From Prochlorococcus sp. MIT 1341 (GTDB lineage Bacteria; Cyanobacteriota; Cyanobacteriia; PCC-6307; Cyanobiaceae), in assembly GCF_034092415.1 (NCBI RefSeq), contig NZ_CP139304.1:1596001-1660000 (forward strand): a stretch of 64,000 nt of DNA, in the 5' to 3' direction. The translations under genes and the position numbers were made by a program. Of the stretch, positions 5,691 to 48,733 are shown piece by piece. The number at the start of each line of letters is the position of its first letter. Position 1 is the stretch's first letter. The notes beneath the pieces are model-generated. The model had not been told where the DNA came from. It made no database searches and was given only the letters and a program-made list of their open reading frames with translations.

Positions 5691-5804
5691 TTAGTCGTCG
5701 ATATTGCAAGCTAGATGACACTCTGTGAGTTCTGGGTTTGCAAGCCGATCAAGAATTCTTGCCATGTCTACTGCTGAGAGTTCTCCATCGCTAGACCATT
5801 TCTG
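5691..5804 (-). pseudogene. 3' remnant of an unrecognised gene
   Basis: The frame reads KWSSDGELSAVDMARILDR followed by LANPELTECHLACNIDD and a stop. It looks like a genuine protein tail (amphipathic helix with an EF-hand-like DGELS turn), but its upstream sequence is replaced exactly at the start of the riboswitch-like leader of the neighbouring gene. Either a remnant or a mini-gene of 25 codons from an internal ATG. Confidence 0.35.
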
Positions 5805-5805
5805 T

Positions 5806-5873
5806 ACGTTCGTCCCTTTGCTGGGATGCATGTTTTGGCAGCAGGGAACGGGGCTGTCACTTCGGAGGAACGT
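5806..5873 (+). promoter_or_regulatory. Glutamine-riboswitch-like leader (Downstream-peptide/glnA RNA type), copy 1
   Basis: The leader opens with ACGTTCGTCCC and closes with CGGAGGAACGT; these ends pair (9 of 10), so the Shine-Dalgarno GGAGG of the next gene is inside stem P1. Inside are P2 (TCCC/GGGA) and P3 (GGCAGC/GCTGTC), giving a three-way junction with conserved GGGATGCATG and CTTCGGAGGAACG. This layout matches the glutamine aptamer classes known in marine cyanobacteria, which precede short peptide genes. Class assignment is by recognition only. Confidence 0.65.
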
Positions 5874-6673: not shown

Positions 6674-6703
6674 CACTGGATGGTGCTTAGACCTAGGCAA
6701 TAA
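6674..6703 (+). pseudogene. Last ten codons of the 31-aa membrane peptide (remnant)
   Basis: HWMVLRPRQ-stop matches the end AWMVMRPRQ of the intact gene at 14820-14915. Only this tail and the downstream intergenic unit were copied here, marking the left breakpoint of the 6.7/14.9-kb duplication. Confidence 0.65.
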
Positions 6704-6815
6704 AAAAGGCCCTTGCGAAATGCGCCGGGCCTGGGTGATGGGGGACTTATTTTCTAAGCGAGATCCAGCTCAAAATCAACCCCCACTAGTAGTGTATTTG
6801 CTTATCAGTTGTATA
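6702..6815 (-). ncRNA. Candidate small RNA, leftward, copy 1
   Basis: On the reverse strand the shared palindromic promoter region (6820-6836) is followed by about 110 nt that end in GGCCCGGCGCATTTCGCAAG then GGCC and TTTTTT, a good intrinsic terminator. No ORF fits. The RNA would contain CCCCCATCACCC, complementary to a motif in the rightward RNA. The 5' end is inferred from a TATTTATAGT -10 region; expression is not known. Confidence 0.4.
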
Positions 6816-6836
6816 AGTCACACTATAAATAGCGTG

Positions 6837-6947
6837 TATCTACCGATGACAAATCGCTTGACAGTGACTAATGTCAACCCAATGGCCGGGTGATGGGGAT
6901 CAAACGGTCTTAATACAAGAAGCCTCTTTTCTGCATGGGGGCTTTTT
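6837..6947 (+). ncRNA. Candidate small RNA, rightward, copy 1
   Basis: Preceded by a -10 element TATAAAT (6824-6830) inside a near-palindrome. The transcript would contain the inverted repeat TTGACA-N8-TGTCAA, the motif GGGTGATGGGGATC and a terminator AAGCCTC-N10-GGGGGCTTTTT. No start codon with a plausible frame is seen. Conserved in sequence and order at 15048-15165. Confidence 0.45.
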
Positions 6948-7013: not shown

Positions 7014-7059
7014 TTGAATACGTCCTTAGTGATCCCCATCACTCAGTGAGTCGAAAGGA

Positions 7060-7353
7060 TTAAGCCTTGATAGCGCATTTTTCAGTTTCTTCAGCAGCGA
7101 GTTCAGTTTTTTTTTCTGCTGGCGCTAGAGCTTTTAGCTCTTCTTGAAGCTCATGCTCTCGTTCATCAATGATTTTGATGCGTGACTGATAAGTTTCTTC
7201 TAGTCTCTTGCGAGAAGCCTCAAGATTGTCGAGCTCCTCTTGCCGCTGCTTACGCTTGATCTCTTCTAGTTGACTATCAGAGACAACATAAACAGTCCTG
7301 GTAGGTGAGAAGAAAGAGTCGGCAAAGAAAGTATCGAATAAAGATGTGTACAT
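7060..7353 (-). CDS. Coiled-coil small protein (97 aa), copy 1
   Basis: I place the start at the ATG at 7351-7353, because both duplicates share GTTCCCGCACAGAACATC just before it and diverge further out. N-terminus MYTSLFDTFFADSFFSP is hydrophobic/aromatic, then RTVYVVSDSQLEEIKRKQRQ leads into a long charged heptad helix (residues 35-80) and an Ala/Glu-rich tail. No domain is recognised. It is divergent from a CP12-like mini-gene, and the pair is duplicated at 48.7-49.4 kb. Confidence 0.75.
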   Translation of the reverse strand: MYTSLFDTFFADSFFSPTRTVYVVSDSQLEEIKRKQRQEELDNLEASRKRLEETYQSRIKIIDEREHELQEELKALAPAEKKTELAAEETEKCAIKA

Positions 7354-7561
7354 GATGTTCTGTGCGGGAACACTCTTACTTTGTCCTAACTTTTCAGATA
7401 AAGTAATGATGTAAACCGAAGAAATTGATTCGGTAAATATCACCTGTTTCGGTTAATAACACTTTAGTTAGTGAGAACCGTAAAGCCTAAATACTTGAGT
7501 AAAAACCCTATATCTAATTCTTATAGATGTGTTAGAAAGGAAGTAACCGAATAGGAGGATT

Positions 7562-14819: not shown

Positions 14820-14915
14820 ATGTTTTGGACGCCCTATGCCGATTGGATTTATGTAGTTGTGAGCCTGACAGGGCTCACTTTCATTGCCTGGATGGTGATG
14901 AGGCCTAGGCAATAA
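14820..14915 (+). CDS. 31-aa single-helix membrane peptide
   Basis: MFWTPYADWIYVVVSLTGLT then FIAWMVMRPRQ: one hydrophobic helix with a basic cytoplasmic end, the size of small photosystem or cytochrome b6f subunits, but it matches none I know. It is 2 nt downstream of the IF2_N-like gene, so probably an operon. Its last codons are duplicated at 6674-6703, supporting reality as a gene. Confidence 0.6.
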   Translation: MFWTPYADWIYVVVSLTGLTFIAWMVMRPRQ

Positions 14916-15025
14916 AAAAGGCCCTTGCGAAACGCGCCGGACCTGGGTGATGGGGACCTTATTTCTAAGGGGGATTCAACTCAAAATCAACCCCCACTAA
15001 TAGTGTTTTTTCTTATGGTTGATAT
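14914..15025 (-). ncRNA. Candidate small RNA, leftward, copy 2
   Basis: Reverse-strand transcript from the palindromic promoter at 15031-15046 would contain the GGGGG/CCCCC hairpin (14972-14999), the sequence TCCCCATCACCC and a terminator GGTCC...GGGCC followed by TTTTTT that overlaps the stop of the 31-aa gene. Conserved with 6702-6815. Boundaries are estimated. Confidence 0.4.
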
Positions 15026-15030
15026 AAAGA

Positions 15031-15046
15031 ACACTATAAATAGTGT
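15031..15046. promoter_or_regulatory. Perfect palindrome ACACTATAAATAGTGT around a -10 element
   Basis: The 16-bp sequence is an inverted repeat (ACACTA/TAGTGT) whose centre provides TATAAAT on the + strand and TATTTATAGT on the - strand. It sits between two outward-pointing terminated units. In the 6.8-kb copy one arm is changed (CACTATAAATAGCG). Confidence 0.45.
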
Positions 15047-15047
15047 G

Positions 15048-15165
15048 TTTCTGCCGATGACAAATCTCTTGACAGCGACTAGTGTCATCTCAACGGCCGG
15101 GTGATGGGGATCAAACGGTCTGAATAAAAAGAGCCTCTTGTCTGCAACGGGGGCTTTTCTTTTTT
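15048..15165 (+). ncRNA. Candidate small RNA, rightward, copy 2
   Basis: Follows TATAAAT at 15035-15041. Contains TTGACAGCGACTAGTGTCAT (inverted repeat), GGGTGATGGGGATCAAACGG and the terminator GAGCCTCTTGTCTGCAACGG then GGGCTTTTCTTTTTT. It ends 14 bp before the stop of the truncated integrase on the other strand. Confidence 0.45.
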
Positions 15166-15178
15166 GCAGAGGGGATGG

Positions 15179-15841
15179 CTAGTTATTCAGTGTTGCCTTC
15201 TTTCCAATGAATATATTCAGATCCTCTGGTGGTAGCCAACTTCTATTAGCCCCATTCTTAAAGGCAAATCGTAGAAATTCCGCTGCGTATTGGATCCGGA
15301 GTCGTCGGCTTGCTGAGCCAGGTTCCCCTCCATGACGGTCAACAAGGGTTTTTAAAATTGAGTACCCACTGGATACAGAAGTTTCGCCAGTAAGGATAAG
15401 CAATGTGCGGGCAATAGGAGTTCGGTAGTTGCGGTTCCAAACTCGTGATCCTTTCTTCCCATTACTTGTTTTATGTGATTTGAATTTTCTAGCTAGTTGT
15501 TCCCAGTCGAGTGCACCATTTAATCCAGACTCGTTCTTTTGTTTCACTAGCTCATATGCTTCAGCTAAACCCTTTCCTTGAGATTTCATTATTAGCGAAA
15601 TATCTGTGGAGATTTTCAATATCCATCCGGCACTTGTTCCTACCCATGGAACAAAATCTGGATTGTTCTTGGCTTTTGGTCCAAGAACAATGCTGGTTCG
15701 GTTGCCATCCTCAAAACGAACTGTCAGCTGAACCTTTTGAACAAGCCCTTTCCCTATGCCGCGAACCATCCATCCCTCTCCACATTCCTGTCGAATTTCT
15801 TCGCGCAGGGAGGTAATCCATTTCGAAGGCTTATTGGGCAT
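15179..15841 (-). pseudogene. Truncated tyrosine recombinase (N-terminal and core-binding domains only, 220 aa)
   Basis: The start MPNKPSKWITSLREEIRQEC and the following beta-rich segment resemble the N-terminus of marine cyanobacterial phage-type integrases; residues 115-200 look like the SAM-like core-binding domain (DWEQLARKFKSH, RTPIARTLLIL, RLRIQYAAEFLRFAF). The catalytic domain with R...HxxR...Y is absent, as the frame stops right after the core-binding part, beside the duplicated ncRNA unit. A relic of an integrative element is the likeliest reading. Confidence 0.65.
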
Positions 15842-27119: not shown

Positions 27120-27485
27120 CTAATTATTTTAATGTCATCAGTAAATATTGTTTTGCAGATCCAGTATTATATAAAAGTTTTATATATAGATCTCGATAGC
27201 CCCTCTCCCTGAATTAAATAAAGTACTGGAGTTCTTGTTGCTAACTTTTATGCTCTCTTGTCGCTTTCAAACGGTAAAAAGTAAACAGTAAAAAGTAAAT
27301 AGAAATAGAAATAGGGCGTAAATGAACTGATTCGGTTAGTGTAAATCGGATATGGAGTTAAAAGTTAAAAGTTAAAAGTTAAAAGTTTAAATTTGAACAG
27401 GCCTATAACTGGGATCTTGGCCAATAGAACTTTTTTTGTTGTATGTATTGTCTCTTAAATAAAGAAAAGAATGTTTATGAGCCAA
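27120..27485. repeat. Spacer with short tandem repeats
   Basis: 27275-27315 has degenerate CGGTAAAAAGTAAA units and 27357-27388 has four units of AGTTAAA(A). The pattern is simple-sequence and AT-rich. No gene or clear promoter seen. Confidence 0.6.
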
Positions 27486-39513: not shown

Positions 39514-39681
39514 TTAATGGCTATGACCGTGGTGGTCATGATCGTGGTGGTCATGATCGTGATCGTGATCTTTGTGTATTCCATCAGTGGGAACGTCTTC
39601 GACTTTAGATTCGCATCCACTTAGAGAAATAGGACTGAAAATAATTGCTGCTGCAAAAAATGGGAAAAGCAGTTTTTTCAT
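39514..39681 (-). CDS. His-rich lipoprotein (55 aa), copy 2
   Basis: Identical to copy 1 up to the tail, which is five residues longer (DHDHDHHDHDHHGHSH) through in-frame expansion of a GTGGTGGTCATGATC unit. Start at ATG 39679-39681, as in copy 1. The upstream operator palindrome is degraded, so expression may differ. Confidence 0.75.
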   Translation of the reverse strand: MKKLLFPFFAAAIIFSPISLSGCESKVEDVPTDGIHKDHDHDHDHHDHDHHGHSH

Positions 39682-48688: not shown

Positions 48689-48733
48689 GAATACCTTCTT
48701 AGTTAACCCCCATCACTCAGCCAGTGGAAAGTC

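Follow-up and report, generated by a model that had tools for sequence, protein, structure and literature searches.

A multi-copy intergenic cassette of Prochlorococcus with two predicted divergent small RNAs shares a hairpin loop with the translation start of rpoD4, a sigma factor gene

The window analysed here, by which we mean the whole stretch of 64,000 nucleotides, covers positions 1596001-1660000 of the 1.94-Mb single-contig genome of Prochlorococcus sp. MIT 1341. It contains an intergenic cassette in which a leftward unit, predicted to encode an RNA named L-RNA, and a rightward unit, predicted to encode R-RNA, diverge from a conserved dyad (copy A). A second cassette (copy B, 6676-6946) lies 8 kb off, matches copy A at 236 of 273 positions (86%) and is its sole strong relative within the window, which bears out the duplicate described in an earlier note on this DNA. 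Two covariance models were used, R1, a 31-nt model of the R-RNA hairpin, and R2, which spans 15006 to 14912 of L-RNA, the 5' end of which is placed within about 15006-15030. The features are as follows; copies A and B and other aligned units sit in the seed alignments of R1 and R2, so that of the scores of these models only matches in other genomes count as independent.

14912-15025, minus strand: predicted L-RNA of copy A (R2 match of 107 bits, E 4.6e-22; family alignment)
14914-14943, minus strand: L-RNA intrinsic terminator (GGUCC..GGGCC stem with inner GCG/CGC, then U6)
14945-14956, minus strand: L-RNA seed UCCCCAUCACCC, complement of the R-RNA loop and of the rpoD4 start (direct match)
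14958-14969, minus strand: small hairpin CUUAGAAAUAAG, adjoining the L-RNA seed on its 5' side (compensatory changes in two of four pairs)
14994-15006, no strand: degenerate repeat of the dyad box, CACTAATAGTG, 40 nt to its left (direct repeat, alignment)
15031-15046, no strand: dyad ACACTAT-AA-ATAGTGT between both transcripts of copy A (conserved)
15057-15085, plus strand: predicted R-RNA promoter ATGACA-17-TAGTGT (upstream-sequence alignment)
15095-15120, plus strand: hairpin at the R-RNA 5' end, GGCCG-GG-UGAU-GGGG-AUCA-AA-CGGUC, invariant in its loop (R1 match at genome position 1611093, E 4.3e-7)
15129-15167, plus strand: R-RNA intrinsic terminator (terminator scan)
6700-6810, minus strand: predicted L-RNA of copy B (R2 match of 111 bits, E 6.6e-23, spanning 6795 to 6700)
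6821-6834, no strand: dyad of copy B, CACTATAAATAGCG (direct match and dyad scoring)
6846-6874, plus strand: predicted R-RNA promoter of copy B, ATGACA-17-TAATGT (alignment)
6884-6946, plus strand: predicted hairpin and terminator of the copy-B R-RNA (fold; R1 match at genome position 1602882, E 1.2e-7)

In copy A the 12-nt sequence GGGTGATGGGGA forms a direct repeat at 14945-14956 and 15099-15110, and both sites were verified by direct match together with the 12 nt of perfect complementarity between leftward and rightward RNA that had been claimed for them; the two motifs of copy B have 11 nt in common, likewise as claimed. An exact 12-nt repeat at close range is by itself weak evidence, since the window contains 24 such pairs where 2.2 are expected, most of the 24 being tandem arrays. 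What lifts the complementary motif above chance is its conservation: GTGATGGGG occurs 27 times genome-wide vs 8 times for the reversed pattern, the excess sits in unit copies, and the whole layout is kept in dozens of relatives. Short tandem arrays of the window include those at 27269-27391 and 39523-39561 (AGTTAAA x5; 15-nt unit x2.6), and a glutamine-II riboswitch is found at 5804-5858 on the plus strand, about 0.8 kb from copy B; the unit region of MIT9313 also contains a glutamine-II riboswitch (L144, 419-476).

Outside the window, DNA search of the same genome identified degenerate copies at 1670232-1670504, 1683931 and 1736774-1736939, and a rightward hairpin (1733646) and a leftward element (1865684) occur as solitary elements. 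The relatives compared include strains that we take to be MED4, MIT9515, MIT9215, MIT9312, MIT9301, SS120, NATL2A, MIT9211 and MIT9313, and the whole divergent unit is present in MED4, MIT9301, MIT9312, MIT9215 and MIT9515. In MED4 the predicted R-RNA lies near 348770-348840 on the complement, the predicted L-RNA runs on the plus strand to about 348975, and further leftward elements stand by themselves at 772391 and 936799. In an alignment of 31 units, conservation extends to both motifs, the outer terminators, the central dyad and a rightward TAnnnT box, but not to the sequence in between. No conserved ORF was found in these 31 units, as the motif-to-motif spacing varies from 110 to 165 nt by non-multiples of three. 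An 18-mer shared with Rhodobacter-type coding sequences (ending in RVMGIKR) had been considered as a sign of common coding origin and was judged a chance identity. The search of phage records for the cassette gave no match; one of three shorter patterns occurs in 26 viral contigs, most of them GC-rich or unlike the cassette, and no phage-borne cassette was found among these 26, one of which, an AT-rich contig, bears an rpoD4-like start.

The centre of the cassette differs from its earlier description. The supposed perfect palindrome ACACTATAAATAGTGT differs from its reverse complement and consists of two 7-bp arms around AA, and its use as a -10 element in both directions finds no support, as the dyad sits operator-like upstream of AT-rich -10-like sequences, one of which adjoins it on the leftward side too. 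Perfect 16-bp palindromes occur elsewhere in the window at 731, 9416, 19152, 37951 and 48123 (5 vs about 1.6 expected). The rightward -10 element likely lies at 15080-15085, outside the palindrome, in a TAnnnT box that the upstream alignment finds kept in nearly all copies. Moreover, the TTGACA/TGTCAA inverted repeat, said to be kept, is not conserved in relatives in the unit alignment and overlaps a better candidate for the rightward promoter, ATGACA-17-TAGTGT. A CACYAT-nn-ATAGTG dyad score of at least 10 out of 12 was obtained upstream of 46% of 125 motif sites and of 3% of shuffles; these sites are not independent, many being related copies, and the signal is diluted because some of them are 3'-UTR or leftward-motif sites. 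Relative to the hairpin motif the dyad is positioned at -65 nt in low-light units and at -31 nt in high-light units. The dyad is more likely an operator than a two-way -10 element, and it is probably that of a dimeric regulator.

The covariance analysis across relatives that the earlier note had proposed showed that the R-RNA hairpin and the L-RNA terminator both covary. In the R-RNA hairpin, 98.8% of cells are paired among 28 sequences, two pairs show changes on both sides, and the covariation score was reached by none of 500 shuffles; the whole R-RNA folds with -24.8 kcal/mol (z -2.8). The R1 model finds a match in 64 of the 151 family genomes (E up to 0.05) and, with E up to 0.2 allowed, in 66 of 81 high-light-genus genomes, MED4 among them. 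For the outer terminators that had been claimed, the plus-strand site was recovered by terminator scan at 15135-15153, and the leftward one, missed by a simple scan, is supported by compensatory changes in four of its eight pairs among 30 related sequences. The next rightward ORF after the unit of copy A (15179-15841) is convergent and no conserved gene follows. The R hairpin also occurs in the 5' leaders of three small-gene families, some of which have a terminator-like stem between hairpin and gene. These leaders belong to a conserved protein of about 60 amino acids (MNLGLLFL...; five loci), a 113-aa protein of Synechococcus-like genomes (three loci) and a 30-aa Hli-like peptide (one locus).

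L-RNA carries a near-invariant CCCCAUCACC directly before its covarying terminator, and CCCCATCACC is exact in 82% of 88 distinct leftward elements. Matches to the R2 model (E up to 0.05) occur in 83 of the 151 picocyanobacterial genomes, with up to 10 copies. Part of the seed is predicted by folding to be paired within L-RNA itself. A three-way junction closing GGGG with CCCC was considered for L-RNA and rejected, being absent from some copies and without compensatory changes. Covariation cannot prove pairing, since both complementary motifs are nearly invariant; the changes in the core seed, compared with its complement, keep pairing in nine cases and break it in four, which leans only slightly towards kept pairing because most of them are C to U. 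Leftward-like elements, i.e., CCCCATCACC followed by a terminator, also lie directly upstream of a trpD-like ORF of this genome (position 73180), between it and the preceding gene, and before such an ORF in a second, Synechococcus-like genome; such an element might serve as an attenuator or be an RNA in its own right. Taken together, the outer terminators, the covarying structures, the near-invariant complementary motif and the lack of a conserved ORF suggest that the anatomy is best read as that of a divergent pair of small RNAs complementary to each other at the motif, so that the earlier proposal stands in part, and the shared -10 palindrome drops out of it.

What is new here is that the R-RNA loop GGGUGAUGGGGAUC equals the translation start of RpoD4. 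One GTGATGGGG of this genome falls exactly on the start codon of a group-2 sigma factor, AAGGAGGACAGGGTGATGGGGATCC, and this gene scores above the cut-off of NCBIfam TIGR02997. The corresponding MED4 gene holds both published qPCR primers for rpoD4 (PMM1697) at the published spacing of 102 nt and is therefore taken to be PMM1697/rpoD4, the expression of which cycles with light over the day (PMC2663038); its translation start has the hairpin loop GGGUGAUGGGGAUC in common with R-RNA. Orthologs were collected from 20 relatives and six named strains, SS120 being in both sets (25 genomes), and AGGAGGCCAGGGTGATGGGGATCCCTCTGGAATCT or a close variant is present at the start in 22 of 25, i.e., in 21 of 21 Prochlorococcus and one of four others, the division into these two groups being our own assignment by size and similarity. 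The rpoD4 start folds as CCAGGG-U-GAU-GGGG-AUC-C-CUCUGG, which places the R-RNA loop on a different stem. Third positions of rpoD4 codons 2, 3, 5 and 7 are invariant among the 22 motif-bearing orthologs; of these positions only those from +6 onward (codons 3-7) are unbiased because the pattern used to collect orthologs contained part of the motif. For comparison, none of 83 rpoD4 gene-body codons with conserved residues has an invariant third position, and their mean identity is 0.60. The frozen sites reach the far side of the hairpin, and antisense pairing alone needs no such freezing. The L-RNA seed is predicted to pair with the rpoD4 start over 12 nt at -32 kcal/mol, vs -19 kcal/mol for the next of 148 start regions, and in six strains GTGATGGGG sites outside ORF interiors are mostly L and R elements and the rpoD4 start.

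The motif furthermore occurs in 3' UTRs of a small-protein family in the window:

7030-7042, minus strand: GTGATGGGGATCA ahead of the terminator in the 3' UTR of ORF 7060-7443 (minus strand), kept beside the homologous gene in relatives
48708-48716, minus strand: GTGATGGGG, which has lost its hairpin partner, in the 3' UTR of a paralog

The first of these sites is kept by the homologous gene at five loci of relatives and in SS120 and is possibly a further binding site of L-RNA. In this family GTGATGGGG precedes the 3'-UTR terminator in several paralogs and species, also at 568238 of this genome and at 1418407 of SS120. The 3'-UTR sites, the small-gene leaders and the trpD-upstream element may be further targets or related regulators.

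What the computation shows directly is the conserved layout, the structures, the near-invariance of the complementary motifs and the recurrence of the same motif at the rpoD4 start. The model that we find best suited to them, and hold with a confidence somewhat above even, is that L-RNA acts as an antisense RNA on the rpoD4 start and that R-RNA is its target-mimic sponge. The two divergent small RNAs would be encoded around the conserved dyad, to which one transcription regulator common to both would probably bind. L-RNA, of about 95-120 nt, would be transcribed and present UCCCCAUCACCC beside its hairpin and terminator, this segment being fully complementary to the rpoD4 translation start, the start codon of which is predicted to lie within the GGGUGAUGGGGAUC-loop hairpin. 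Pairing of L-RNA at this site in the cell would then block ribosome entry and presumably lower RpoD4. R-RNA, of about 65-70 nt, would offer the same loop on another stem, bind L-RNA and free rpoD4, so that the copy number and the ratio of L-RNA to R-RNA would set a threshold. L-RNA combines, as an antisense small RNA would, a terminator of its own with a conserved seed complementary to an mRNA start, and the predicted R-RNA, a hairpin and a terminator, has in its loop GGGUGAUGGGGAUC the rpoD4 start that a sponge or target mimic would copy.

The main rival, which we regard as unlikely, assumes that the GGGUGAUGGGGAU hairpin is bound by an RNA-binding protein controlling rpoD4 translation, in which case R-RNAs would be decoys in the manner of CsrB/CsrA and the small-gene leaders more targets. 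The conservation of the stem in addition to the loop, in R-RNA and rpoD4 alike, fits such a protein, as do the multiple copies and the leader positions in three small-gene families that a pure sponge would not explain. However, it leaves unexplained why in most of these genomes the exact complement stands before a conserved L-RNA terminator, often without a neighbouring R-RNA, and the analysis turned up no candidate protein. Those same leaders, some with their terminator-like stems, are also what recommends a riboswitch-like, cis-acting leader or attenuator, with hairpin-terminator units as terminated leaders and L-RNA unrelated. This is improbable in our judgement, as the window unit has no conserved gene rightward, its next ORF being convergent, and as a ligand aptamer needs its loop neither to equal the rpoD4 start nor to complement the L seed.

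Mutual regulation of L-RNA and R-RNA without any mRNA target, the earlier reading, draws on the 12-nt perfect complementarity of copy A and is very improbable: L and R elements are each solitary in many genomes, every Prochlorococcus examined has the motif at the rpoD4 start, and it is because the motif is also the RpoD4 translation start that antisense action with a target mimic is likelier than mutual pairing alone. Slightly less probable still is that the cassette represents a type I toxin-antitoxin locus, or else a small mobile repeat with no function at the RNA level. A multi-copy unit of about 275 bp would suit it, and so would the MED4 copy, a compact divergent unit at about 348.77-348.98 kb between Yfr10 and Yfr11, a stretch that is part of genomic island 1 (PMC2518516). 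Against both forms stand the covarying structures and the recurrence of the motif at the rpoD4 start; the cassette has no conserved small ORF opposite an antisense RNA, its spacing changing by non-multiples of three, and terminal repeats or a mobility gene were not found at the repeat.

The proposal of an antisense RNA with a built-in mimic provides a concrete candidate for sigma-factor control, with one short seed, one start codon and one mimic throughout the genus. Prochlorococcus has very few protein regulators; if the proposal is true, a dedicated RNA switch would act on a master regulator in a regulator-poor microbe. Furthermore, a repeated intergenic cassette outside every Rfam family would receive an explanation, and with a known seed and target the copy-number differences between ecotypes would become interpretable. 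A wider form of the proposal, a genus-wide multi-copy circuit dedicated to rpoD4, with antisense RNA and mimic in one cassette under one regulator and copy number tuning the RpoD4 output of each strain, is put forward tentatively, at somewhat less than even confidence.

Like DsrA, RprA and ArcZ on rpoS, L-RNA would base-pair with the mRNA of a group-2 sigma factor at its initiation region; those RNAs activate by opening the leader, whereas repression would be expected here because the L-RNA seed covers the rpoD4 start codon. The chb mRNA trap for ChiX and SroC for GcvB exemplify bacterial sponges and target mimics, which titrate a small RNA by copying its target site, as R-RNA would. In the present case, however, a single divergent cassette would give rise to both regulator and mimic, and the site copied is the start of a sigma factor. 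In the microarray survey of MED4, none of the eight ncRNA intervals that were read (Yfr8, 10, 11, 13, 16, 17, 19 and 20) contains the motif and the MED4 unit overlaps none of the intervals in the survey table (PMC2518516); the cassette RNAs could correspond to small RNAs named in Voigt 2014 (Yfr22-Yfr27 / Yfr101-Yfr105). Yfr103 of marine picocyanobacteria is likewise a small RNA present in several copies, seven paralogs in Synechococcus CC9605, and its start site, too, is preceded by an imperfect palindrome, but it is 290-328 nt long and in Prochlorococcus is given for low-light strains only (PMC5069720), which by description sets it apart from RNAs of at most about 130 nt that would occur throughout the high-light genus.

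The closest likeness is with Yfr1/Yfr10-Yfr2 (RF01116; RF01701, Cyano-1), a multi-copy system in which a C-rich RNA bears the seed (CUCCUCACAC) and a G-rich RNA a nearly complementary motif. In Prochlorococcus Yfr2 binds and neutralises Yfr1 and Yfr10, blocking their targets, and in high-light strains the Yfr10 genes adjoin Yfr2 genes (PMC6778093). Searches of the window unit with Rfam at gathering and relaxed thresholds returned nothing relevant, and at gathering score there was no match at the MED4, MIT9301, MIT9313 and SS120 units or at the rpoD4 locus. The Yfr1 model (RF01116) gives no match over cut-off at the units, the single true Yfr1 of this genome being at 459404-459459, and the Yfr2/Cyano-1 model (RF01701) gives none there either, the two true Yfr2 being at 1140372 and 748920. 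The single-stranded motif of Yfr1/Yfr10, ACUCCUCACAC, is not that of the cassette, the seed of which is UCCCCAUCACCC, and a Yfr1-like motif occurs at a separate Yfr10-like locus near 748750. By Rfam models, motif and locus the cassette is not a member of this system; by analogy it would work like it, with a motif pair of its own (CCCCAUCACC / GGUGAUGGGG) and a divergent layout around a dyad.
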